Below, piece by piece: positions 1 through 37,457 of a stretch of 37,457 bases of DNA; positions within the stretch are counted from its first letter, which is position 1; each line of letters opens with the position of its first letter. Location: assembly GCA_021199975.1 (NCBI GenBank), contig JAJQHF010000112.1:1-37457 (forward strand), written 5' to 3'. The stretch comes from Candidatus Gastranaerophilales bacterium. GTDB lineage: Bacteria > Cyanobacteriota > Vampirovibrionia > Gastranaerophilales > Gastranaerophilaceae. Made by a program: the position numbers and the translations under genes. Below the pieces are notes generated by a model, which did no database searches, was not told the DNA's origin, and saw only the letters and a list, made by a program, of their open reading frames with translations.

Positions 1-55
1 GATATATTAGCTATGGAAGCTGTTATAACTTTTGTTAAATTGTCTGCAACAGAAG
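1..55. repeat. Terminal direct repeat, identical to 37403-37457 (circular assembly overlap)
   Basis: gatatattagctatggaagctgttataacttttgttaaattgtctgcaacagaag occurs at both ends; a minus-strand ORF reads through the join in frame. Confidence 0.97.
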
Positions 56-9371: not shown

Positions 9372-10034
9372 TTACCAAACTATCCGCCCGAACACCTTAA
9401 CGGGCTTACAAGCTCGTTTAAACACTCTCCACATCTCGTTAAACTCATTAATCATCGGCTTATAGTTTTCATCCTGATCGTCTTTGTTATTTTGAATCAT
9501 TGTTCTCATAACGAGACAATCCATAAAAAGGTATTCAAGATTTTCAGGCAAATTTATATAATCATCCTCATTAACAAATTCAAAAGCCGTATCCCCGTCA
9601 ACTGTCAAAACGGGTTCAAATTGAGAGTAAACAACATTTATATTATATTTTCCGTCAGGTATAGGATATAATCTTATTCTTTGAGTCGGATTATCCGTAT
9701 CAATCCAATAACTTACGGGTGTACCTGTTTCGGATTTGTCATATTTTGCAGGGTCGCCTATAAATGTAAGTTCTTCTAATGTATCAGTGTTATACACTTT
9801 ATCTATTTGACCTACGGGGATATTATATTTATATTTTTTTGCAATACAAGTCAGAGCAAGTTCTAATTTTCTAAAATTAAAGCTTTCAAGGTTATAGAGA
9901 TATCTTAAAGCACAATTTAATTCAGTTCGTGCCTGTAAGCTGTCATCGCTTGTAAAAACCATATCATCCGCATTAAAACCGCTCCATGCTTTATATCCTA
10001 ATTCAGTTAATAAACGCTGCGCCGTAACCGTCAT
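9372..10034 (-). CDS. Tail accessory / head-tail adaptor (P22 gp4-type position)
   Basis: 220 aa: 'AQRLLTELGYKAWSGFNADDMVFTSDDSLQARTELNCALRYLYN' typical of gp4-like adaptors. Confidence 0.6.
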   Translation of the reverse strand: MTVTAQRLLTELGYKAWSGFNADDMVFTSDDSLQARTELNCALRYLYNLESFNFRKLELALTCIAKKYKYNIPVGQIDKVYNTDTLEELTFIGDPAKYDKSETGTPVSYWIDTDNPTQRIRLYPIPDGKYNINVVYSQFEPVLTVDGDTAFEFVNEDDYINLPENLEYLFMDCLVMRTMIQNNKDDQDENYKPMINEFNEMWRVFKRACKPVKVFGRIVW

Positions 10035-10498: not shown

Positions 10499-11359
10499 TT
10501 ATGAGATAGTAAATGTTGCGCTTGCCAGACATGTAGGTTGTACAACCTTAGCACCGTAAACATATAAGCCTCTTACATAATCACCAAAGTTATCTTTATC
10601 CTTAAGACTTTCAACTTTAGTGATTTGTTCTGCGTATGTAATAGCTTCTGATGTACCTGCTAAGATTGCAAAGCCTGTATCCTCTTTAATAATTGTTGAT
10701 TGTTTGATGTCAAAACCTGCATACTGCATAATAGCGCCTTTTCTTACGGTTTGGTCACCTAATGTGGTAGCGTGTTTTGCTTCTTCCGAGTTTTTAATAA
10801 CTCCGATTATTTCAGGCGGAAGAATTAAGAAAGGTCTTTTCCCGTCCTCACCCAATCCGCTGTCATCAATAGCGTTTGCACGTGCAAGAAGCGTAAACAA
10901 GTTAACACAAGTTGAATAAATATCATCCGCCGTAACCGCAACCGTTCCCAATTGGTTTGTTGTGTCAACTCCGGCGATACCCAAGGCGTGTAAATAAGCG
11001 TCTTTAACGTTAACAACTTCTTTTTTAGCCTGATTGGTATATTTGCCCATAAGGTCGATATTTGCTTGTACTTTGTCAATATCAGGAACAATAAAGCTAA
11101 AGCTTTTAGCCTGGTCGACTTTTAAAGTGGTAGTTTCACCGTCTAATTTTTGATATGTCAAAGCTGTATCATCATCATAAGTAGATACTGTAATATTACC
11201 TACTGTTTGGATGTGGACGGTGTCACCCTGTCTTTTAATTTCTCCTTCATAGTTGCGGTTAACACAATCGAGCATAACCCCCGCATCCATAATTTTGCGC
11301 AATAATTCTTTTGACCATATCTCGGGTCTGAATAATCCGTCTTGTACTGTTGTAGCCAT
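10499..11359 (-). CDS. Major capsid protein
   Basis: 286 aa; 'FRPEIWSKELLRKIMDAGVMLDCVNRNYEGEIKRQGDTVHIQTVGNITVSTY' coat-like N-terminus; next to scaffold. Confidence 0.8.
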   Translation of the reverse strand: MATTVQDGLFRPEIWSKELLRKIMDAGVMLDCVNRNYEGEIKRQGDTVHIQTVGNITVSTYDDDTALTYQKLDGETTTLKVDQAKSFSFIVPDIDKVQANIDLMGKYTNQAKKEVVNVKDAYLHALGIAGVDTTNQLGTVAVTADDIYSTCVNLFTLLARANAIDDSGLGEDGKRPFLILPPEIIGVIKNSEEAKHATTLGDQTVRKGAIMQYAGFDIKQSTIIKEDTGFAILAGTSEAITYAEQITKVESLKDKDNFGDYVRGLYVYGAKVVQPTCLASATFTIS

Positions 11360-16866: not shown

Positions 16867-16908
16867 ATTGATTAAAAGCAACACATTTAATCAATTATGT
16901 GGTATAAT
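16867..16908 (+). promoter_or_regulatory. Early rightward promoter with 10-bp inverted-repeat operator
   Basis: attgattaaa-N9-tttaatcaat (16867-16876/16886-16895) plus extended -10 TGgTATAAT (16900-16908). Confidence 0.6.
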
Positions 16909-16940
16909 AATAATGTAAGAAAAAAGAAAGGAGGTCAGAG

Positions 16941-17183
16941 ATGACCAATAAATTAGAAATAGAAAAATATAATGAAATGGAGCGTATAGCGCTCCGCAAA
17001 GCCCTAGTGGAGGCTTGTGTAGAGCCTTCAGATGAAATAGTAGAAAGGGAATTATACAATAATTCCCTCAAGCTATTCAAGGGAGCTCATGGCATGGTAG
17101 CATGCTATGAGGATATAGCTGTAGACGTCTATAGTTTGGATGTCTACACAGGACCTTATGTTGATGAGCTATTCAGGGAATAG
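16941..17183 (+). CDS. Small early ORF, or structured RNA: hairpin-saturated
   Basis: 80-aa ORF with RBS aaaggagg; most of its length lies in stem-loops of 5-11 bp. Confidence 0.5.
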   Translation: MTNKLEIEKYNEMERIALRKALVEACVEPSDEIVERELYNNSLKLFKGAHGMVACYEDIAVDVYSLDVYTGPYVDELFRE

Positions 17184-17244
17184 CTCATATTTTTATCTCC
17201 TTATGGAGTAATAATTATAACAAAAAAGAAAGAAGGAACAAAAA

Positions 17245-17517
17245 ATGAAAAAATTTGAAATTCCAAATTATCCGATCGGGAAAACCGATTTAATAGAAAT
17301 TTTAATGAAGTCAGAAACTTCATTAGATTTAATAGCAGATTTGATTTTTGATGAAAAAATCAAAATCACTTCAACATTGAGGCATGGGTTGCATAAATTC
17401 AACTCTTTTAAAAAAGCCGACGACAAAATTGGCTTTCAGAAATATTTTTCAGACACTTGTAAAATATGGTATGGTCAAACATTTGGTGCAAATATGTGGG
17501 GCACTTTTGGTACTTAA
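17245..17517 (+). CDS. Small early protein, hairpin-rich mRNA
   Basis: 90-aa ORF with upstream agaagga RBS. Confidence 0.55.
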   Translation: MKKFEIPNYPIGKTDLIEILMKSETSLDLIADLIFDEKIKITSTLRHGLHKFNSFKKADDKIGFQKYFSDTCKIWYGQTFGANMWGTFGT

Positions 17518-17553
17518 AATGCAAGATGCCAAGCAGAAACGAAAGGAAAAAAG

Positions 17554-18039
17554 ATGAAAAAACGCTATTATGTTGAATGCTTTAGCGAATACTATTATTC
17601 GATTAAAGAATTAGAAGAAGACTTAATCAATTCGTATTTACATGATAATTTAATTGGTTATGATTATGCCCTTAGCCTGTTAAAAAGGCTTAAAAAATAT
17701 TTATTTTGGTTATATGACATAACCAAAATGAAAACTTATACTGATTGGGATTATGAAAGGAAAAGTGATTTAATTTTTAAACTTTCTTCAAAAATTGAGG
17801 ATGTCATGGAGGAAACGAAAATAAAAAAAGAAGAATTATTCAACACAATTAAATATATAATTGAACCGTTCTATGATAATAATAATATTATAGTGTATGA
17901 CGAAAATGACGATTATATAGATGAATTATATATCGAGGACTTACCAAAGTTTGCGAAAATGTTGGATGAACAACCATACACACATGAAGAAATTGAATTA
18001 TGTGAAGATTTTTGCGAAAAATATTACAAATATATTTAA
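17554..18039 (+). CDS. Hypothetical acidic early protein, hairpin-rich mRNA
   Basis: 161-aa ORF with gaaagga RBS. Confidence 0.7.
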   Translation: MKKRYYVECFSEYYYSIKELEEDLINSYLHDNLIGYDYALSLLKRLKKYLFWLYDITKMKTYTDWDYERKSDLIFKLSSKIEDVMEETKIKKEELFNTIKYIIEPFYDNNNIIVYDENDDYIDELYIEDLPKFAKMLDEQPYTHEEIELCEDFCEKYYKYI

Positions 18040-18041
18040 AA

Positions 18042-18089
18042 GGCGGTCTAAATTGACCGCCAGCCCTTAAGGCTTATCTACCATAGTAG
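18042..18089 (+). terminator. Three tandem hairpins after the early ORF (no U-tract)
   Basis: GGCGGTC[6]GACCGCC (18042-18061), AGCC[5]GGCT (18062-18074), CTAC[4]GTAG (18078-18089). Confidence 0.45.
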
Positions 18090-18149
18090 AAATTAAAAAG
18101 ATTATATATTTTTTATAAAAAATTGTCAATAATTAAAATAAAAAAAAGA

Positions 18150-18220
18150 AAGCCGGTATCTAGTTGAACTTTGGTTCTTTGCAAGATATTAAATAGAGCT
18201 TGCGACCAGATAGACGGCTT
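18150..18220. ncRNA. Possible structured RNA element, about 71 nt
   Basis: Nested AAGCCG/CGGCTT, TATCT/AGATA, GGT/ACC, GCAAG/CTTGC; strand uncertain. Confidence 0.35.
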
Positions 18221-18274
18221 AAATAAAAAGATAACATGTTTAATTATATAAGTAAAGGAGTTTTTTTAAAAAAA

Positions 18275-18469: not shown

Positions 18470-18670
18470 TTATTTTCTCTTTTTCCACTCGATATCATAA
18501 CCAAGCAAATCGGCAATGTGGTAAAGCTCAATACAATCAAACGAGCCGCGTTTAATTCTAGTTGATATGTTTTGCGGTGTTGTTCCTAACATTTCGGCTA
18601 ATTTACTGATATTTAGCCCATTTTCGGCTAATTTACCTTTTAAAAAGTATTCAAATTCGATTCTATTCAT
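18470..18670 (-). CDS. Small HTH regulator
   Basis: 'LNISKLAEMLGTTPQNISTRIKRGSFDCIELYHIADLLGYDIEWKKRK'. Confidence 0.7.
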   Translation of the reverse strand: MNRIEFEYFLKGKLAENGLNISKLAEMLGTTPQNISTRIKRGSFDCIELYHIADLLGYDIEWKKRK

Positions 18671-19003: not shown

Positions 19004-19048
19004 AATATTAAAATTAATATTGACAAATTAAATATTAATGTGTATAAT
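19004..19048 (+). promoter_or_regulatory. Consensus sigma70-type promoter with repeated AATATTAA half-sites
   Basis: TTGACA 19020-19025, 17-bp spacer, TATAAT 19043-19048; AATATTAA at 19004, inverted at 19014, direct at 19031. Confidence 0.75.
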
Positions 19049-24034: not shown

Positions 24035-24067
24035 TTGACAGATACTCTTATTAATTGTATAATACAA
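24035..24067 (+). promoter_or_regulatory. Perfect consensus sigma70-type promoter, dyad over -10
   Basis: TTGACA 24035-24040, 17-bp spacer, TATAAT 24058-24063; TTGTATaATACAA 24055-24067. Confidence 0.8.
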
Positions 24068-24087
24068 AAGTAAAGGAAAATAACATT

Positions 24088-24246
24088 ATGAGAAAAAATG
24101 ATACCAATAAGATTTATGTACATAAACATGTAGTCTTTGATTTAAAATTTTGGGATGTTATATCTGAATATTTAGAAGAAAAACAGATAAATAACTTTTC
24201 CGAGTTTTTAAAATCTGCAATTATGTTTAAAATAAATCATTCTTGA
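24088..24246 (+). CDS. Small RHH-like protein
   Basis: MRKNDTNKIYVHKHVVFDLKFWDVISEYLEEKQINNFSEFLKSAIMFKINHS; the track start at 24055 is in the promoter. Confidence 0.6.
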   Translation: MRKNDTNKIYVHKHVVFDLKFWDVISEYLEEKQINNFSEFLKSAIMFKINHS

Positions 24247-31308: not shown

Positions 31309-31659
31309 TTATAATCCCATTCTTTTTTCAAGAGTTTTTTGGAAAGATAATAACTTGTCTTTTTCAAGTTCTTTTCTAAAACAAGTAGTAAAATATGCCC
31401 CGGGAACTCTAACGCAATTATCCTTGCAAAGGTTCATTACACGCCATGCAGCAGCAGGATTTTTTTTAATAACCGCTCTAGGATTAAAAACTCTCCACTC
31501 TGTTAACTGATTAACCAAATACCACCAGTCGGATTTTGATAATCTGTTTTCACTGCTATCATGACATATAATAGGGGTATTTATACCTTCATGACATAGT
31601 TCATTACATGTCATGTCATGAATCATGTCATGATTGATAACTAAACTTGTTTTTTTCAT
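31309..31659 (-). CDS. Hypothetical protein, isolated minus-strand gene
   Basis: 116-aa ORF preceded by ggag; its 5' end overlaps a TCATGACAT repeat cluster. Confidence 0.5.
   Translation of the reverse strand: MKKTSLVINHDMIHDMTCNELCHEGINTPIICHDSSENRLSKSDWWYLVNQLTEWRVFNPRAVIKKNPAAAWRVMNLCKDNCVRVPGAYFTTCFRKELEKDKLLSFQKTLEKRMGL
31559..31633. repeat. Cluster of TCATGACAT 9-mers (two direct, two inverted)
   Basis: 31559-31567, 31589-31597 (+); 31613-31621, 31625-31633 (-). Confidence 0.75.
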
Positions 31660-34503: not shown

Positions 34504-34848
34504 TTAATTACAGCCGCAAATCGGAAAATTAGCCAATTCTACCCAGGCATTAGTACCGTCATTAACATACCAGCCTTTATATAACTTCCTGCAGGTTAAT
34601 TCATCCGATGTAACGGGTAAATGATATTTGTTATATAAATTTGCACTATTCCCGTTAACAGTAAGGAAAACATTAACGGGGTCACCCGTTACGGTATTTG
34701 AAATATTATCTGATGATTTAATAACAAAACAAAACGGCTGTTTAGATGCTGTATTTGTGCTGTTTGTAACTGCTATTATTAAGCTTGTACCTGCTGTATA
34801 GGTTAAACCCGTAGATATATGAAAATTTTGACAATTATTGCAAGCCAT
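34504..34848 (-). CDS. Putative virion accessory protein
   Basis: 114-aa ORF, Cys at both termini (MACNNC…CGCN). Confidence 0.6.
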   Translation of the reverse strand: MACNNCQNFHISTGLTYTAGTSLIIAVTNSTNTASKQPFCFVIKSSDNISNTVTGDPVNVFLTVNGNSANLYNKYHLPVTSDELTCRKLYKGWYVNDGTNAWVELANFPICGCN

Positions 34849-34955
34849 TTTTATTATTTCCTTTCTTTTTTATATATTTTTTTTTGGGGGGGGGTAACGG
34901 GGCTTGAGTTTAAATTAATATAAAATCCAAATCAAACCCCGTTAAAATTAAAATG

Positions 34956-35621
34956 CTATACAACATTTAACCCGCACCCTGAGCCGCCGAACCCGTTATA
35001 GAAGTTTGCAGCCTGATAAGGGGAGCAAGTAATATAAGCAGGCTGCGGAACGGGTCTAAGAGTGTTAATAATATTAGCGCTTTGAGCCTGCTGTGATAAT
35101 TGAAAATTAGCCGTTTGCAATGCTTGGTTTTGGTCTGCGAGCTTATCTCTAAGAGCTTGTATAGTATTTTGAACCATTAAAGCCCTTGTTTTTTCTCCGT
35201 CCGCATTAATAGCCGTTACGATATCACAAGTATTTTTAGCGTTTTCATATCTAACCGCATCTATATTGCGATTAGTTTCACAGCAGCAATTTTGAGCCGC
35301 AAAACGATTTTCGGCAATTGCCGCATTAGCTGCCGCAAAGCCTTGCAGCATTGTAGTATTTTGAGCATAGAACCCGTCACAAAGCCCGTTTTTAATTCCC
35401 TCTTGACCTCTTAAGAGTGATTGAGTGTCAAAACCCTGCTGTAATTCTGCCTGTGTTAATCCGTTACCGTTACGATTAAAACCGTTACCGCAAAACGCAA
35501 AAATAACAAAGAGAACTATAACCCAAATCCACTCACCGCCGAAGCCGTAACCGTTCCCGTAATTGTAACCTTTGTTCGTAATGGCTGCAACGTCTGCCGC
35601 TGTTAATCCGTCCATTGTCAT
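34956..35621 (-). CDS. Conserved gut-phage Gly-rich TM protein with CCC motif
   Basis: 'GGEWIWVIVLFVIFAF', 'RFAAQNCCCETN', 'GEKTRALMVQNTIQALRDKLADQNQALQTANFQLSQ', 'PQPAYITCSPY'. Confidence 0.75.
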   Translation of the reverse strand: MTMDGLTAADVAAITNKGYNYGNGYGFGGEWIWVIVLFVIFAFCGNGFNRNGNGLTQAELQQGFDTQSLLRGQEGIKNGLCDGFYAQNTTMLQGFAAANAAIAENRFAAQNCCCETNRNIDAVRYENAKNTCDIVTAINADGEKTRALMVQNTIQALRDKLADQNQALQTANFQLSQQAQSANIINTLRPVPQPAYITCSPYQAANFYNGFGGSGCGLNVV

Positions 35622-37224: not shown

Positions 37225-37457
37225 CTACCCTGCAATCCCTGACAAATCAAGCGTATATTGGAAAGTTTTTGTTTCGTTAGGTGCTATGGTAACGGGGGTT
37301 ATAAGGCTACGGGCTATGAGAGTGTGATTATAATAATAAGAAGAAGTAGTAGAACTATAACCGGTAACAACCCCGATTTCTGATACTGTTAAATTTTCAT
37401 CCGATATATTAGCTATGGAAGCTGTTATAACTTTTGTTAAATTGTCTGCAACAGAAG
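37225..37457 (-). CDS. C-terminal part of the join-spanning CDS (…TFQYTLDLSGIAG*)
   Basis: In-frame continuation of the 1-377 ORF. Confidence 0.75.
   Translation of the reverse strand, partial: SVADNLTKVITASIANISDENLTVSEIGVVTGYSSTTSSYYYNHTLIARSLITPVTIAPNETKTFQYTLDLSGIAG
37403..37457. repeat. Terminal direct repeat, second copy
   Basis: Identical to 1-55. Confidence 0.97.

Follow-up and report, generated by a model that had tools for sequence, protein, structure and literature searches.

Organization of the locus

Three short genes (ORF1 to ORF3) lie in tandem on the plus strand of the window, by which we mean the whole 37,457-nucleotide stretch analyzed here. The genes and the elements upstream of and over them are as follows.

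16867-16895, unstranded: perfect 10-bp inverted repeat ATTGATTAAA/TTTAATCAAT, upstream of the -10 element of the ORF1 promoter
16900-16908, plus strand: extended -10 element TGGTATAAT, candidate ORF1 promoter, found by sequence and pattern scan
16933-17208, plus strand: chain of eight hairpins over ORF1, found by stem check and folding controls
16941-17183, plus strand: ORF1, orphan protein of 80 aa, putative Acr, with SD and ATG in place
17245-17517, plus strand: ORF2, orphan protein of 90 aa, with no family match above cut-off
17554-18039, plus strand: ORF3, orphan protein of 161 aa, with no family match, folded on the plus strand only

The inverted repeat at 16867-16895 is the only such pair in the phage, with none expected by chance, and is a candidate operator. 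A second operator-like arrangement occurs at 19013-19048, where the inverted repeat ATTAATATT/AATATTAAT overlaps a perfect TTGACA-17-TATAAT promoter.

No match above cut-off was obtained for ORF1-3 in Pfam, PHROGs, or NCBIfam, and none matched a known Acr family. We detected no homologues of the three proteins in INPHARED phages, where helicase matches of ORF3 had E values of 0.2 or worse, and no homologues of ORF1 among 278 family genomes. Structure prediction gave mean pLDDT values of 55 for ORF1 and 50 for ORF2, which are too low for use.

The ends of the window (1-55 and 37403-37457) share a 55-base overlap, indicating that the window is a circular assembly. It is the genome of a temperate phage, encoding CI-like repressors, a terminase, and an integrase, and its contig was binned with host assembly G000. 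A sister phage (G306:C7) has a terminase 73% identical to that of this phage, and head genes are also common to both. Neither the ORF1-3 module nor any CRISPR-repeat mimic was found in the sister phage.

Folding of the RNA over ORF1

The initial annotation had described a chain of strong stem-loops running through the three ORFs. All nine stems for which it gave a sequence were present at the coordinates indicated, and the seven given by position only folded as claimed. Scanning the whole 37-kb phage in 120-nt steps with dinucleotide-shuffle controls, we observed the lowest plus-strand window of the phage at 17041-17160 (z of -5.8), and the windows starting at 16921, 17161, 17281, 17641, 17881, and 18001 were also within the lowest 12. 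Folding of 16930-17212 gave z values of -7.1 on the plus strand and -6.2 on the minus strand, with energies of -106.5 and -86.6 kcal/mol, respectively. No Rfam family matched the region above the gathering threshold.

ORF1 had a minimum free energy of -83.8 kcal/mol, compared to -54.7 +/- 5.0 kcal/mol in synonymous-codon permutations (z of -5.8; none of 300 as low), and resampling by codon usage gave a z of -7.6 (0 of 300). Under the synonymous control, ORF2 and ORF3 were milder than ORF1, with z values of about -2.8 and -3.2, and most other phage genes fell between -2 and +2. The mean gene z was -0.3 in the host and about -0.65 for the remaining genes of the phage. These comparisons with shuffled and synonymous controls, which the initial annotation had proposed as its check, confirmed the claim in that ORF1 lay below every control and other early genes were not folded. 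We also considered that early genes in general might be more structured than late ones, an idea that we rejected after finding no significant difference in either phage.

Strand preference was apparent in these stems. ORF3 was folded on the plus strand only (z of -4.6 versus -1.6 on the minus strand). Among strong stems, defined as those with 7 or more Watson-Crick pairs, the region had nine G-U oppositions to one A-C on the plus strand, whereas the ratio elsewhere was 64:62; the ORF1 stems had four G-U and no A-C. The earlier claim that the noncanonical pairs point to a plus-strand RNA is thus supported for this set of stems, but 18042-18097 and 17190-17212 read as minus-strand mimics of CRISPR repeats, as described below.

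The hairpins may represent ordinary mRNA control unrelated to CRISPR, providing RNase stability or slowed translation of the early operon, although we consider this reading doubtful. In its favor, a stem (GGTCA/TGACC) spans the ORF1 SD and start codon, and a single gene of the sister phage, located in a different module, is strongly folded. However, eight stems in one 240-nt gene far exceed the needs of a start-site switch, and other early genes are unfolded. Palindrome-perfecting mutation by template switching, under weak synonymous constraint, might instead have left the hairpins as a by-product. Consistent with such an origin, the stem sequences differ from one another, and a relative lacks at least one of them; yet this process should neither favor G-U on one strand at 9:1 nor concentrate in one gene, and we regard it as unlikely.

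The RusA-like gene of the sister phage (L042:650-1105) is also strongly folded, with a z of about -5 to -6. With a value of about -6 in that gene, ORF1 is not the sole strongly folded gene in these phages. Four homologues of the RusA-like gene that we tested had z values from -3.8 to -0.7.

Host CRISPR types and spacers directed against the phage

A DNA search identified host contig C98 as a CRISPR array with the repeat GTTTTCGTCTCCTTATGGAGTAATTATTTATTAAAT. From about 40 loci retrieved by way of Cas1, together with PADLOC profiles, we found that this repeat type belongs to III-A systems (Cas10, Csm2, Csm3, Csm5, and Cas6) and that arrays with ATCTACAATAGTAGAAATT belong to Cas12a. The host assembly contains a III-A Cas10 fragment on C72, a Cas12a C terminus with Cas4-Cas1-Cas2 (V-A) on C245, and Cas9 with Cas1 and Cas2 (II-C) on C31. 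Host arrays carry spacers against the phage, two of which are identical or nearly so to their targets. The corresponding sites are listed here.

17046-17078, plus strand: counterpart of host III-A spacer 7, in ORF1, a protein-level match
17080-17109, unstranded: protospacer of a host II-C spacer, 28/30 by sequence match, over the hairpin at 17086-17111
17436-17466, plus strand: protospacer of host III-A spacer 15, 29/31, in ORF2, with the crRNA antisense to ORF2 mRNA
24076-24109, plus strand: protospacer of host III-A spacer 17, 34/34, just 3' of a perfect promoter at 24035

We oriented the III-A crRNAs from the placement of the array downstream of cas2 in L049 and L051. With this inferred orientation, both III-A spacers that match ORF1 or ORF2 are antisense to the mRNA of the plus strand, which RNA targeting needs, and the spacer for 24076 is antisense to the RNA that the 24035 promoter would produce. 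A weaker 18-nt match places III-A spacer 14 antisense to a gene on the minus strand (10499-11359). The phage persists despite a perfect III-A target. The first bases transcribed from the perfect promoter at 24035 are those of the 34/34 target.

Spacer 7 reads EKLYNNSLKLF where ORF1 has RELYNNSLKLF, with 9 of 11 residues kept and six silent codon changes. At the DNA level the agreement (22/34) is no better than chance, and the match was recognized from an unbroken run of nine identical residues in the correct frame and strand. This sequence pattern suggests purifying selection on ORF1 at the protein level. Since host spacers record ORF1, both through the kept residues and silent changes of spacer 7 and through the II-C spacer, it is probable that ORF1 is a genuine protein gene under selection and one already met by host immunity.

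The spacer-7 relative also bears on the stems. The stem at 17046-17068 is broken in this sole recorded relative, which kept the protein. Dual selection for protein and structure, one of the explanations first put forward for the region, is plausible for ORF1 given a z of about -6 with the protein fixed, but the relative, in keeping the protein and losing the stem, speaks against it.

Two solitary repeat units on the minus strand

Two groups of hairpins in the region resemble the repeats of host CRISPR types when read on the minus strand. Their parts are listed in the direction of reading, beginning with the V-A unit.

18101-18129, minus strand: V-A promoter, perfect TTGACA-17-TATAAT, 12/12 consensus bases
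18076-18097, minus strand: V-A (Cas12a) solitary repeat mimic, 21/22 bases, with the handle AATTTCTACTATGGTAGAT at 18094-18076
18062-18075, minus strand: self-complementary AAGCCTTAAGGGCT in the guide position, folding on itself
18042-18061, minus strand: intrinsic terminator GGCGGTC-AATTTA-GACCGCC-TTTT by sequence, end of the V-A unit
17214-17222, minus strand: perfect extended -10 element TGTTATAAT, abutting the III-A mimic
17190-17212, minus strand: III-A solitary repeat mimic, 21/23 bases against the host's own repeat, stem CTCC/GGAG at 17197-17208
17164-17188, minus strand: 11-bp hairpin in the guide position after the III-A mimic, a terminator-like stem after ORF1 on the plus strand

What had been described as three tandem hairpins (18042-18089) is, on the minus strand, a Cas12a crRNA-like gene with promoter, handle, guide-position hairpin, and terminator, and the third of these hairpins, CTAC-4-GTAG, is the Cas12a repeat stem. 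Only 0.085 perfect promoters are expected per shuffled phage. Here the promoter stands in place of the upstream half of a normal repeat, and the transcript is predicted to start with AAUUUCUACUAUGGUAGAU at the 5' end of the handle, the point at which a mature Cas12a handle begins.

A Racr repeat is recognized by 90% or higher identity to a CRISPR repeat along half or more of its length (an SRUFinder partial match), and the V-A mimic shows this degree of identity. It agrees at 21 of 22 bases with the 36-nt V-A repeat of L054, a comparison based on repeats of relatives with the host V-A array lying outside the assembly. The mimic is solitary, intergenic (in the ORF3-ORF4 gap), and outside any array, and it is the only match to the repeat core in the host assembly. 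Across 278 relatives, the core pattern was confined to this phage, to repeats in arrays or pairs, and to a single coding sequence. The upstream promoter and the matching host subtype expected of a Racr are both present. We found no target for the V-A pseudo-guide in the loci searched. By its sequence, the unit is very probably a V-A Racr and a further member of a known element type.

Just before the V-A promoter, 18142-18222 on the minus strand has a three-way-junction fold with an outer stem AAGCCG/CGGCTT, followed by a T-run. This fold is possibly another small RNA or a terminator. A tRNA-like reading was rejected after ARAGORN gave a negative result, and the segment had no Rfam or tracrRNA resemblance.

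In the III-A unit, the hairpin first noted as CTCC-TTAT-GGAG (17197-17208) is the stem of the host III-A repeat. A 17-mer of the mimic is identical to the array repeats, and its other 19 copies are all in the C98 array. On the minus strand, the order is the extended -10 element, the hairpin CTCC-ATAA-GGAG, a drifted 8-nt handle, and the 11-bp hairpin. The mimic likewise reaches 90% identity across half or more of the repeat, is solitary and intergenic between the ORF1 stop and the ORF2 start, and has a host of matching subtype, with C72 carrying the Cas10 fragment and C98 the array. Its candidate promoter combines the perfect extended -10 with a weak -35 and was not listed by our promoter scan, which makes this unit less certain than the V-A unit; we consider it a probable III-A Racr on the basis of its sequence.

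The III-A and V-A repeats each had their best phage match inside the same 1.2-kb segment, and none of 200 shuffled genomes reached either match. We found no mimic of the II-C repeat or of a tracrRNA in the phage. The suggestion that the region might be a decoy came close in that two hairpin groups mimic the host III-A and V-A repeats, although the initial annotation missed the link to CRISPR. Its alternative of one structured multi-domain RNA was not supported, as the region holds three protein genes and no fewer than two distinct predicted small-RNA units on the minus strand, with no Rfam match.

Solitary repeats have been proposed to serve phage integration into host CRISPR arrays (PMC10651486), and those described here might have that role or be array remnants. 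Only half-repeats are kept, however, and in the V-A unit a perfect promoter with its start at the handle takes the place of the upstream repeat half, with a terminator following; such a role or origin is highly improbable.

A candidate counter-CRISPR locus

At the sequence level, the genes of three orphan small proteins are accompanied by a solitary CRISPR-repeat mimic of each of two host subtypes (III-A and V-A). We regard 16867-18129 as a likely counter-CRISPR, or Racr, locus of a temperate phage. The V-A unit would be transcribed leftward from about 18094 as an RNA of roughly 57 nt, consisting of a finished Cas12a crRNA handle and then self-complementary hairpins in place of a usable guide. 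With hairpins instead of a guide, this RNA would occupy Cas12a without targeting. Starting at its CTCC/GGAG hairpin, the III-A unit would similarly sequester Cas6 or the Csm complex. ORF1-3 probably act as anti-CRISPR proteins or as accessory immunosuppressors, and we lean toward calling them putative Acr genes. The locus supplies three new candidates for anti-CRISPR proteins.

Three V-A Racrs (RacrVA1-3) have been proven experimentally; solitary repeats show enrichment around acr genes and correspond to the subtype of their host (Camara-Wilpert et al. 2023, PMC10651486). Like these and other viral solitary repeat units (RacrIF1 and RacrIC1; PMC10651486), the units described here are solitary partial repeats, intergenic in a phage, with a promoter (a candidate one in the III-A unit) abutting the repeat, a host of the matching subtype, and small orphan genes adjoining. 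Unlike known Racrs (PMC10651486), this locus brings together two subtypes, V-A and III-A; it includes a III-A unit, whereas tests in the main text of that paper cover I-F, I-E, I-C, and V-A only; and it has hairpins in guide positions and a neighboring coding RNA packed with hairpins. Such a two-subtype locus with hairpin-filled coding RNA is new relative to known Racrs. As a proposed RNA decoy locus with a candidate type III Racr, tied to the CRISPR types and spacers of its own host, it is directly testable.

The locus also resembles acr-aca operons in having short orphan genes behind one promoter, a palindromic operator-like site, and small HTH genes nearby (18470-18670), but it differs in that no known Acr or Aca family matched and the HTH genes are encoded by the other strand. 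GOLLD and ROOL are large structured RNAs of phages, long and highly folded. The sequence described here is similarly long, highly folded, and phage-borne; in contrast to GOLLD and ROOL, it had no Rfam match, is protein-coding, and is made of simple local hairpins.

Possible shielding of ORF1 mRNA from III-A

Type III systems tolerate mismatches and need no strict PAM. Our favored explanation for the hairpin chain, tentative and unproven, is that it shields the ORF1 mRNA from III-A, keeping the transcript unrecognized by this RNA-targeting system. The mean cost of opening a 34-nt target was highest in ORF1 (13.7 kcal/mol, compared to 6.9 +/- 1.4 kcal/mol for all genes). The III-A spacer sites that match the phage at the DNA level are easily opened (3.4 to 6.0), whereas the spacer-7 site costs 15.4. 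These values fit shielding from III-A, with four sites being too few to show it. The plus-strand G-U bias and the plus-only folding of ORF3 also argue for shielding, and the spacer-7 relative without the 17046-17068 stem and the equally structured RusA-like gene of the sister phage argue against it. A fuller proposal, in which the coding RNA of an immunosuppressor gene is folded against III-A pairing and combined with III-A and V-A crRNA decoys in the same locus, appears somewhat less likely. We also asked if structured acr mRNA is general and rejected the idea, as SIRV2 genes annotated or known as Acr were not structured, a result that likewise counts against shielding.

The chain could instead be an antisense string of hairpins forming a minus-strand III-A Racr of roughly 290 nt, extending from the repeat hairpin (about 17209) to the GGTCA/TGACC stem and a T-rich tract near 16930. 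Both ends of the chain coincide exactly with minus-strand sites, one promoter-like and the other terminator-like, and the minus strand of 16930-17212 is itself well folded (z of -6.2). Nevertheless, the plus strand folds more strongly (by the energies given above), the absence of A-C oppositions from the ORF1 stems on that strand favors plus-strand pairing, and known Racrs are short; an antisense Racr of this size seems improbable. If the shielding reading is true, a structural shield would add a further, separate route of CRISPR escape to those of point mutation, Acr proteins, and Racrs, and would provide an answer to phage escape from type III systems.

Other features of the phage

An ORF on the minus strand at 31309-31659, with a synonymous-shuffle z of -4.5, overlaps plus-strand genes and may not be a real gene; this region is structured. 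A head-region gene at 9372-10034 of the window, compared with L042:6118-6798, is displaced and inverted relative to its neighbors in the sister phage. Finally, a run of nine G residues occurs at 34886-34894, 3' of a T run and between the genes at 34504-34848 and 34956-35621, and is a possible slippery tract.
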